DNA from: a virus
Reading direction: 5' to 3' (one strand)
Virus record (IMG/VR): IMGVR_UViG_3300034062_003008
Coordinates: 1 to 34,264 of that record
DNA: 34,264 nucleotides
Within the stretch, counting starts at the first letter, position 1. Every line of letters begins with the position of its first letter. Positions 30,981 to 33,226 of this stretch are shown here, one piece after another. Under the pieces are notes generated by a model, which saw nothing but the letters and a program-made list of their open reading frames with translations, searched no databases and had not been told where the DNA came from. The translations under genes were made by a program, and so were the position numbers.

Positions 30981-32040
30981 AGAGCATCCTCCGTACGTCG
31001 TCGGCTTCAATCGCCGTGATCCACGCCTCGGCGTCACGAACGCCGTAGCTGGCCACAAGCCGGTGGCCGTTGACCGCCAGCCCGGCGGCAAACTCAATCG
31101 CCTGCCTTTCGCGAAAGGCGAAAGCGGGCGAGACCCGCCGCAGTTCGAGGTCGGCGTCGAGCCAGATAAACCGGTGTTCGTAGACGCGGCGGCTGCCGAG
31201 GCCCGCCACCTCGTGCACTAGGCCAAGCCAGCCGTCGTCGAACTGGAGCAGCTGCGAGCCGCCACGGAACCGCTTGGCGAGGGCCGGCGACGGGCGACGC
31301 TGCGAAATCTGCCACGCCCCCGGGATCGAGCCGTTGGGGTCCACCGTCACGACGTGACCGTTGTGGTTCGCCGCGTAGAGCCAGCCCTCGCGGCCCACAA
31401 ACGGCATCCAGTTCTTTTCGTGATCCTGGACGTTGATCCCGTCGAGCACCCGCAGCCCCGAGAACGTGGCCGCCCGCAGATCGAGGTCCGCGGTCGCGAT
31501 CCGGCAGCGGCCGTCGAAGGGGCTCACGTCGCGGACGGTGGCCGAGACGCCTATACCCGTTTGGGTATATCGCAGCCGGCAGTCCTCCAGGCCGGTGACC
31601 GCGAAGCCGGTCCGTGGGTAGTCGGGGCCAGTGACGACGCGGGCCGAGGCGACGGTGAGGTCGGGCCGCAGCCTGACGAGCACGTTCTCCGTGCGGATGC
31701 AGCCGCCGTCGGCGGCGGGCATCTCATAGCGGCCGTCCACGATCTGGTAGTTCGAGGATCGCACCAGGGCGACCAGGTCGCCGCCGTAGCTCGCGAGCGT
31801 GGGGTTGAACAGCGACCAGCCCTCGTGGGCCGGCTCTACGTCGATCCGCTGGTGGTGGACGCTGGCGAGCTCGTCGAGCGTGGGCGTGTACCAGGTCCGG
31901 TTGGTCCGCACCATGTGCTCGATCTCTTCCGTGAGGTCGGGCCGGGCGAGGATCCGCTCGCACGCCCGGCGGCCGGCGTCGAGCTCGCCGACGTAGTAGC
32001 TGTGGACGCAGAGGGCGAGGTCGTGCTCGTGGCCGTTCAT
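30964..32040 (-). CDS. GH130-like beta-propeller glycosidase/phosphorylase-type protein
   Basis: A 358-residue protein. After a short helical N-terminal part (about 1-65), it has the five-bladed propeller pattern of GH130-like mannoside phosphorylases and hydrolases: SLFNPTLASYGGDLVALVR, TGLEDCRLRYTQ, HEKNWMPFVGREGWLYAANH, FRGGSQLLQFDDGWLGLVHE, VSPAFAFRERQAIEFAAGLA. The conserved Glu-Asp-x-Arg and Glu-Lys-Asn-Trp motifs are present. It may process or only bind mannosides. A palindrome (31552-31569) falls within the coding region around 'RYTQTGI'. Start: ATG at 32040, with no clear ribosome site; a TTG at 32049 is an alternative. Confidence 0.75.
   Translation of the reverse strand: MNGHEHDLALCVHSYYVGELDAGRRACERILARPDLTEEIEHMVRTNRTWYTPTLDELASVHHQRIDVEPAHEGWSLFNPTLASYGGDLVALVRSSNYQIVDGRYEMPAADGGCIRTENVLVRLRPDLTVASARVVTGPDYPRTGFAVTGLEDCRLRYTQTGIGVSATVRDVSPFDGRCRIATADLDLRAATFSGLRVLDGINVQDHEKNWMPFVGREGWLYAANHNGHVVTVDPNGSIPGAWQISQRRPSPALAKRFRGGSQLLQFDDGWLGLVHEVAGLGSRRVYEHRFIWLDADLELRRVSPAFAFRERQAIEFAAGLAVNGHRLVASYGVRDAEAWITAIEADDVRRMLYAVTV
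31552..31569. repeat. Palindrome TATACCC-GTTT-GGGTATA inside a coding region
   Basis: This is the third copy of the ATACCCGTTTGGGTAT palindrome; the two others are at 32117-32132 and 32158-32173. Here it is in frame within the GH130-like gene. Confidence 0.8.
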
Positions 32041-32072
32041 GGCGGCCAAGTGTGCCGACCGCGGCGGGCGAG

Positions 32073-32083
32073 CCGCAGGGGGT
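32073..32083. repeat. Intergenic CCGCAGGGGGT element (copy 3)
   Basis: Third copy of the 11-mer also found at 18431-18441 and 28143-28153. Confidence 0.55.
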
Positions 32084-32113
32084 CAGTCAGCGGCGGCACC
32101 TCGCCGCTGTAGC

Positions 32114-32181
32114 GTCATACCCGTTTGGGTATAGCCGCACTTTCGCTCGGTAAGGTCATACCCGTTTGGGTATAGCCGCAC
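32114..32181. repeat. Two identical 27-bp direct repeats, each containing a palindrome
   Basis: 32114-32140 and 32155-32181 are identical for 27 bases (GTCATACCCGTTTGGGTAT then AGCCGCAC). Each includes a 16-base hairpin-forming palindrome. Confidence 0.9.
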
Positions 32182-32284
32182 CTGCGGCGTGTTGTGTCGT
32201 CTCGCGTAACACATCAAATCCGATATGTTTCACAAACGAGATTCTGTAAGCATTAATGCCACATTTCTCTTACGAACTGCGCAT

Positions 32285-32635
32285 CTATTGGCACTTCCTG
32301 CCATCTGATGCGCGGCCCAGCAGCCCGAACACGGCGTCGTGATGCTGGCGGTAGTCGGCACTGTCAATGAACGCCCCACCGTCTGCGGCGACCGCCGCGT
32401 GCCTGAGCATGAACGCAATCGCCTCCCGCTCCGCGTCGGTGAGCGTGTTGTCCCGAGCGGGAACGTCATCGCCCAAATCGCGTGTTTTGCAATCGGACTG
32501 TCCCGAGCGGGAAAGTAGCCGCGACACGAGGCAGGCCGGATGCCAGCGGTGACATAGCTCGCCGTGCGTTTGGATGCGGTCGCCCTGGGTGGCGAGCCAC
32601 GCGCGGGCGTCGGCGATGAGGTCGATGTCGCTCAC
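32285..32635 (-). CDS. Hypothetical protein containing two inserted palindromic 15-mers
   Basis: A 116-residue protein: MSDIDLIADARAWLATQGDR, a Cys/His segment (GELCHRWHPACLVSRLL), then TLTDAEREAIAFMLRHAA and a helical end. The start is a GTG that overlaps the preceding gene's stop. No family recognised. Two copies of a 15-base palindrome are read in different frames inside it (see findings). Confidence 0.6.
   Translation of the reverse strand: MSDIDLIADARAWLATQGDRIQTHGELCHRWHPACLVSRLLSRSGQSDCKTRDLGDDVPARDNTLTDAEREAIAFMLRHAAVAADGGAFIDSADYRQHHDAVFGLLGRASDGRKCQ
32449..32513. repeat. Repeated TGTCCCGAGCGGGAA (50 bp apart) within a gene
   Basis: The 15-mer occurs at 32449-32463 and 32499-32513. 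It contains the hairpin TCCCG-AG-CGGGA. Confidence 0.85.
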
Positions 32636-32847
32636 GCCAGCAATTCCACAAGCTCATGCGGAATCAGTTCGCGGACGGCCTCCAGTTCACGGCGGGCCGC
32701 GTCGGTCGGCTCGCCGTACTTGATCCGTTGGCGGCAGTGTTCGCCAATCCGCTCCAGGGCGATCAGGGCGTCACGGCCGGCGAGGGCGTAGCGGTGGAGC
32801 CGCTCGTCATCGGGATCGCCCAGATCGAACCGGAGGATGGCTTGCAT
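32632..32847 (-). CDS. Small conserved phage protein
   Basis: A 71-residue protein with MQAILRFDLGDPDDERLHRY, then a helical end ELEAVRELIPHELVELLA. Proteins with a RFDLxDPDDRxxH start are common in phages and prophages, of unknown role. Its stop overlaps the next start (GTGA). Confidence 0.65.
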   Translation of the reverse strand: MQAILRFDLGDPDDERLHRYALAGRDALIALERIGEHCRQRIKYGEPTDAARRELEAVRELIPHELVELLA

Positions 32848-32877
32848 GACCGCAGCCTAGCCGACTGGTCAATCGGG

Positions 32878-33099
32878 TCAACGCTCGTCCTGGCTCGCGA
32901 TCCGCTTGGCCGCGTCGATGTCGAACGAGTCGGCATGGCCGAGGTCGAACCAATGTGGATAGTGCCGCAGAAGGCGGCGGGCCTCCTCGCGTACCTCGCG
33001 GCGGATGCCCTTGATCCCGCCCTCATAGGGGCTGGCGAGACGCAGCAGGAAATCCTGCGTGCGGATGACCGCCGACGTTCTCTCGCGAGGGAGTGTCAT
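32878..33099 (-). CDS. BPSL0761-family-like small protein
   Basis: A 73-residue protein: MTLPRERTSAVIRTQDFLLR, then a RREVREEARRLLRHYPHW helix and a short acidic end. This TxPxERxxAVxxTxxFLxxL plus ReAxxLLRHYP pattern matches a small conserved family found in proteobacterial and phage genomes, with no known function. The ATG at 33099 follows the inverted repeat TTCGC-AAACT-GCGAA (33108-33122). Confidence 0.75.
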   Translation of the reverse strand: MTLPRERTSAVIRTQDFLLRLASPYEGGIKGIRREVREEARRLLRHYPHWFDLGHADSFDIDAAKRIASQDER

Positions 33100-33107
33100 G
33101 TTCGTAA

Positions 33108-33122
33108 TTCGCAAACTGCGAA
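33108..33122. promoter_or_regulatory. Small inverted repeat at a gene start
   Basis: TTCGC-AAACT-GCGAA lies nine bases upstream of the ATG at 33099, where a ribosome site would be expected; none is obvious. It may be an operator or an RNA hairpin. A second dyad, CATTCCA-12-TGGAATG (33164-33189), is in the same 127-bp gap. Confidence 0.35.
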
Positions 33123-33226
33123 CGCCCGGTCGGTTTCGTTGCAAAACATACGGTGAGTGCTGCCATTCCACTTTCCAGAAAATGGAATGACGCTACTTCA
33201 AATCGCGTTTCTCTGTGGGTGTACGG

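Follow-up and report, generated by a model that had tools for sequence, protein, structure and literature searches.

HipBA is a classic persistence module, and in E. coli K-12 its operators comprise four sites of the form TATCCN8GGATA, a series of HipB dimer sites that are bound cooperatively. Phage counter-measures against toxin-antitoxin (TA) systems, such as the pseudo-ToxI RNA and T4 Dmd, mimic the antitoxin side and keep the toxin silent. Palindromic DNA is also familiar in other guises: Rickettsia palindromic elements (RPE) are short palindromic sequences lying inside genes and read in different frames, and REP/REPIN sequences are paired palindromes. Lon degrades E. coli HipB more slowly when an operator oligonucleotide is present (PMC3376134), and HipA-family kinases have been proposed, though not demonstrated, to take part in abortive infection or to act against phages (PMC8262856). 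The reading that we favour for the locus described here, and that we hold to be about evenly balanced between right and wrong, is that two palindromes in a phage genome belong together as an orphan version, carried by the phage, of the double operator of Y4mF/couple_hipB-type HipBA systems, and that this pair would serve as a decoy for the HipBA of the host. Like the E. coli operators, this pair would represent a series of HipB dimer sites, although its recognition sequence differs and the sites in the E. coli O1O2 oligonucleotide are more closely spaced (PMC3376134). Whereas pseudo-ToxI and Dmd are an RNA and a protein, the pair would be a bare DNA site mimicking a TA operator.

The window, meaning the whole stretch of DNA that was analysed, corresponds to a linear virus record in IMG/VR, 34,264 bases long. 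It contains two exact copies of TGTCCCGAGCGGGAA on the plus strand, 50 bp apart from start to start (Table 1), which are its only TCCCGNNCGGGA sites even when one mismatch is tolerated. The 15-mer itself is an incomplete palindrome with the symmetric part TCCCG-NN-CGGGA, and the actual unit is two TCCCGNNCGGGA palindromes exactly 50 bp apart. As the first-pass annotation had reported, both copies are exact and are translated in different frames of a minus-strand ORF, as ...SRSGQ... and ...VPARD.... By an arithmetic estimate, about 0.5-1 repeated exact 15-mers are expected by chance in 34 kb, so that the recurrence within the window is weak evidence, and the case therefore rests on comparison: what argues against randomness is that related phages, unrelated phages and bacteria all have this pair at this spacing.

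Table 1. Features of the palindrome pair and its surroundings, in window coordinates
Feature	Position	Strand	Remarks
Palindrome copy 1	32449..32463	+	Symmetric core 32451-32462, TCCCGAGCGGGA; candidate HipB-type operator half; motif shared with bacterial 49-51 bp pairs 5' of hipB
Palindrome copy 2	32499..32513	+	Symmetric core 32501-32512; candidate second operator, 50 bp from copy 1
38-bp linker between palindrome cores	32463..32500	.	Conserved within this phage family only; unrelated in other phages and bacteria
116-aa ORF enclosing the pair	32285..32635	-	Unknown function; GTG start; N- and C-terminal parts modular between relatives
71-aa ORF	32632..32847	-	Context; upstream of the 116-aa ORF, same hypervariable cluster
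97-aa ORF	32878..33171	-	Context; query for motif-independent retrieval of relatives

The surroundings of the pair (window 32050-33200) are hypervariable: small genes on the minus strand are clustered there, modules have been swapped among them, and regions of five other loci correspond to this stretch (L034, L048, L050, L058, L151). A recurring intergenic sequence, ACACGCCGCAG..., and further short palindromes, e.g. TTTCCGGCGTCGGAAA and TTCGCGAATCGCGAA, also occur there. No Rfam match to a structured RNA was found anywhere in the window. A CRISPR array was considered and rejected, because there are two copies of 15 bp rather than several units in which repeats no shorter than about 23 bp alternate with unique spacers, and because the linker is conserved between relatives. 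The window also encodes a tape-measure protein and DNA methyltransferases; searches with these found no close reference phage, and the best match of the tape-measure protein, in a Planctomycetota genome (260 bits, vs 120 bits in Pseudomonadota), weakly suggests Planctomycetota as host.

Viral contigs searched with TGTCCCGAGCGGGAA yielded 71 stretches. In relatives of the window phage the palindromes always stand 50 bp apart with identical arms, while the two centre bases vary (CT, TT, AG). Alignments to the window break in several relatives at the edges of a unit of ~67 bp, with the flanking DNA changing just beyond it in L008, L038 and L043. Since a search by motif is biased towards the motif, relatives were also retrieved by the neighbouring 97-aa protein (n = 9); six of these nine carry the pair and three lack it (L151-L153), one of the latter (L151) having a pair-free orthologue of the enclosing gene and two having other genes. 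Among the window and the six motif-independent loci, none of the 20 arm columns is variable, as opposed to 11 of 38 in the linker and all four centre positions (arms vs the remaining columns, p = 0.0013, which is indicative only, the rows being related). Pairwise divergence among these seven sequences amounts to 12% in the linker and 26% in downstream DNA. The changes at the centres alter residues (S to A, A to E), whereas synonymous sites within the arms are invariant.

Invariant arms, centres that are free to change even where a residue is altered, and a 50-bp spacing maintained across differing linkers together argue for constraint at the level of DNA. The objection raised in the first-pass annotation, that a protein repeat would hardly explain the two copies, is strengthened by this tolerance of amino-acid change at the centres and by the lack of synonymous change in the arms. 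The gaps that it proposed to look for in orthologues of the 116-residue protein are illustrated by the L151 product (L151:4274-4585), which aligns to the N-terminal half of that protein with a gap of 16 residues exactly at the pair; nor were both segments seen to be kept as conserved residues, though six of nine relatives do carry the pair.

Loci without similarity to the window phage likewise bear pairs at 50 bp. When viral contigs were scanned with TCCCGNNCGGGA-N(23-53)-TCCCGNNCGGGA, which admits any spacing from 35 to 65 bp, at least 119 stretches were returned, as against 4 in the whole viral collection, without a common spacing, for a reversed-motif control. Distinct linkers, counted by start-to-start spacing among the matches listed and including loci from the earlier 15-mer scan, number 66 at 50 bp, 23 at 49 bp, 6 at 51 bp and 3 at 48 bp; other spacings are barely represented. 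Chance was rejected as an explanation on the strength of this spacing peak and of the contrast with the reversed motif. The viral pairs at 48-51 bp fall into at least 45 clusters with unrelated flanking sequence; one locus (L159) has three copies, at spacings of 49 and 49 bp, and the outer flank differs in some pairs (TGATCCCG..CGGGATCA). DNA-similarity searches for named phages with the pair, starting from L186, L169, L162 and L024, gave nothing useful.

Because unrelated phages share the palindromes and their spacing, and not the linker, the pairs have the appearance of paired protein-binding sites. A mobile palindromic element of the RPE or REPIN type was rejected on the same comparison: copies of such elements are alike throughout, whereas outside the family of the window phage only palindromes of 12-14 bp and their spacing are common, the linkers are unrelated, and the window itself holds a single pair. 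Of the two explanations offered in the first-pass annotation, a DNA-level function thus gains from the invariant arms, free centres and fixed spacing, and insertion of a self-mobile palindrome loses from the unrelated linkers.

The largest viral cluster lies in the CobS gene of T4-like cyanophages, with 28 pairs at 50 bp among the matches listed (L154, L155, L157, L165, L174 and others). There, the second site falls on VPFGN, a motif that is conserved in the protein, and the first lies in a variable stretch; a perfect first site is missing from CobS of the named cyanophages examined. Part of this cluster may be a coding coincidence, and we treat it as ambiguous rather than as a clean independent case. 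A further coding family with a 50-bp pair (L012, L024, L031, L072 and others), in records some of which are about 200 kb, encodes SRSGQKDLLPGGKADNVPDRE..., presumably resembling the N-terminus of a DUF5661-like protein, and has extra copies 21 bp away. In L250 (2880-2980), a 49-bp repeat holds a second palindrome, TTATCGT..ACGATAA, in step with the HipB-like site.

The same motif in a scan of bacterial genomes returned at least 119 stretches, with peaks at 49 bp (45 pairs) and 50 bp (56 pairs) among the 160 listed, mostly directly 5' of hipB and hipA. Neighbouring genes were sought with HMMs built from HipB-like and kinase proteins adjacent to the pairs; among the matches listed, HipB and/or HipA lies within 3 kb of 97 of 108 bacterial pairs at 48-51 bp, as opposed to 9 of 52 at other spacings, and 67 of the 68 loci with a HipB match have the array 5' to that gene. 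TIGR03070 (NCBIfam) defines couple_hipB, the Y4mF family antitoxin; six of eight HipB-like neighbours exceed its cut-off, and for the other two it is the best, though sub-threshold, match. The single kinase neighbour that was tested matches TIGR03071, the HipA N-terminal domain. From this association of pairs at 48-51 bp with hipB and hipA, and from their place 5' of hipB, TTCCCGnnCGGGAA at 49-50 bp is assigned by position as the operator array of this hipBA family.

Eleven bacterial pairs at 48-51 bp, among the matches listed, have no hip genes nearby. One of these, in Comamonas koreensis (L310:5077-5138), is flanked by ORFs that look phage-like by eye and may represent a prophage-borne orphan. 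In a Planctomycetota genome (G359:C78:15796-16132), an apparent CRISPR array has a repeat that contains TCCCGTGCGGGA, which explains some of the bacterial pairs at about 64-65 bp.

The phage pair thus resembles the operator arrays of TIGR03070-type hipBA in its TTCCCGnnCGGGAA motif, in its place within the 49-51 bp range of spacings, in the number of copies (2-3) and in similar centre and flank preferences, and differs from them in lacking hipB and hipA and in being embedded in unrelated coding sequence. Preferences derived from bacterial hip operators rank the sites of viral pairs above isolated sites (AUC 0.73, with a control biased by the 15-mer search) and above 13 control sites (AUC 0.72, p = 0.006, paired sites not being independent). 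An HMM search of the DNA surrounding viral pairs found neither hipB nor hipA (0 of 132, among the matches listed). Fifty whole viral records, among them records of 150-220 kb, gave nothing for HipA_C, and nothing above cut-off for TIGR03070, an absence to be read in the knowledge that records may be fragments; weak sub-threshold Xre-like matches occurred in 4 of the 50. The window has no HipA and no HipB above cut-off, and neither it nor any of the 50 records contains adjacent hipB and hipA genes.

The palindromes and a spacing of 49-51 bp are accordingly present in the window, and a hipB gene directly 3' of them is not, for which reason we speak of an orphan, operator-like pair and not of a hipBA operator in its ordinary context. 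Operator-type sites in phages that lack the corresponding TA genes are also what a phage decoy of a TA system would consist of. Motif, spacing, the link to hipBA in bacteria, the lack of hipBA in phages, constraint confined to the arms and the existence of a pair-free orthologue jointly indicate an orphan pair of HipBA operators on which constraint acts at the level of DNA. A HipB-type operator identity of the pair is probable; its role as a decoy is a tentative proposal, to which we give slightly less than even weight.

A possible course of events can be outlined from the sequences. The pair would consist of two putative HipB-dimer sites, TTCCCGnnCGGGAA-like and centred 50 bp apart, which in this phage lie within the coding region of a small modular gene. 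As phage DNA enters and replicates, the operator copies would bind HipB, or the HipB-HipA complex, of the host; we infer such binding, and also that it would sequester the host protein and not regulate a phage gene. A bound decoy might keep HipA inactive and stabilise HipB, so that the HipBA response of the host would be blunted during infection. Alternatively, the effect of a decoy could be derepression of hipBA, harmful or useful depending on the host. The rarity of pairs in 294 sampled Planctomycetota genomes counts against the decoy reading, as does the lack of the pair in some relatives (L151-L153).

The competitor that fares best, though we consider it unlikely, is a regulatory use, in which a phage gene has been placed under host HipB or HipBA and the pair represses or times a phage promoter. 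Bacterial pairs directly 5' of hipB are what would be expected of autoregulatory sites, an intergenic position is common among viral pairs, and in several relatives of the window phage (L029, L034) the pair stands at the very start of an ORF. Against this, the pair lies inside coding sequence in the window family and in at least two others, and elsewhere between the tRNA genes of phage tRNA arrays (L186, L245 and L247, and probably L167, as read from its sequence), where a repressible promoter of a protein gene is an unlikely purpose. No gene recurs downstream of the viral pairs, and promoter scores over them are not raised (z>2 at 5% of viral vs 19% of bacterial sites, a difference that is not significant, p = 0.2).

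It is improbable, in our estimate, that the pairs are relics, i.e. operators left behind after loss of a phage-captured hipBA and drifting without function. The modular region with its high gene turnover would suit such a history, and the pair in L098 looks decayed; perfect arms around free centres, amid the divergence of linker and downstream DNA given above, would not be expected of drift, and neither would at least 45 unrelated clusters in which no pair has a HipB or HipA match nearby, or the lack of HipA from all 50 whole records. There is likewise a small probability that the sites belong to another Xre-type regulator, of phage or host, that shares motif and spacing with HipB by coincidence. 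The divergent outer flank of some viral pairs could be so explained, and phages do have other palindrome pairs with a spacing of their own (ATACCCNNNNGGGTAT, below); nearly all bacterial pairs at the present spacing sit at hipBA, however, and flank and centre preferences agree in part between viral pairs and hip operators. That the segments are simply ordinary coding sequence (SRSGQ ... VPARD), repeated through the protein or by chance, we regard as very improbable. In its favour, the recurrence of a 15-mer within 34 kb is unremarkable on its own, the ORF is conserved, and cyanophage CobS demonstrates that a coding motif can match one site. Against it, the 50-bp spacing is fixed in unrelated genes and in non-coding DNA, centres vary at the expense of amino acids while synonymous sites in the arms stay unchanged, and the segment is missing from the L151 orthologue.

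If the decoy reading holds, HipB-site pairs of fixed spacing among tRNA genes, in intergenic gaps and inside genes raise the prospect that bare operator DNA arose independently, in many unrelated phage lineages, as a decoy against a TA system, a generalisation that we advance more tentatively than the decoy role of the pair itself. No earlier report of HipB operators in phages was found in the full-text literature searched, which includes few subscription papers and preprints, and a phage DNA decoy, or any other phage use of the bacterial regulator HipB, appears to be undescribed. Such elements, if real, would constitute a DNA-based class of anti-TA, and possibly anti-defence, element, capturing host HipBA as the phage genome multiplies; a DNA decoy would be a simple counter-strategy that needs no gene. 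Orphan pairs in dozens of unrelated phage clusters would also amount to independent, sequence-level evidence for an interaction between phages and HipBA. For Y4mF-type hipBA modules, which are widespread, the results further supply an operator consensus and spacing that should be useful for annotation.

A second palindrome, ATACCCGTTTGGGTAT, occurs in the window at 32117-32132 and 32158-32173, 41 bp apart and between genes, with a third copy (31553-31568) inside a gene of 361 aa. Searches for an owner of ATACCCNNNNGGGTAT found no pair in 25 genomes and a pair in 1 of 398 in another set. In unrelated phages ATACCCNNNNGGGTAT pairs do recur, favouring spacings of 40-41 and 27-28 bp, and together with the 41-bp pair of the window they may represent a second class of orphan operator pairs.
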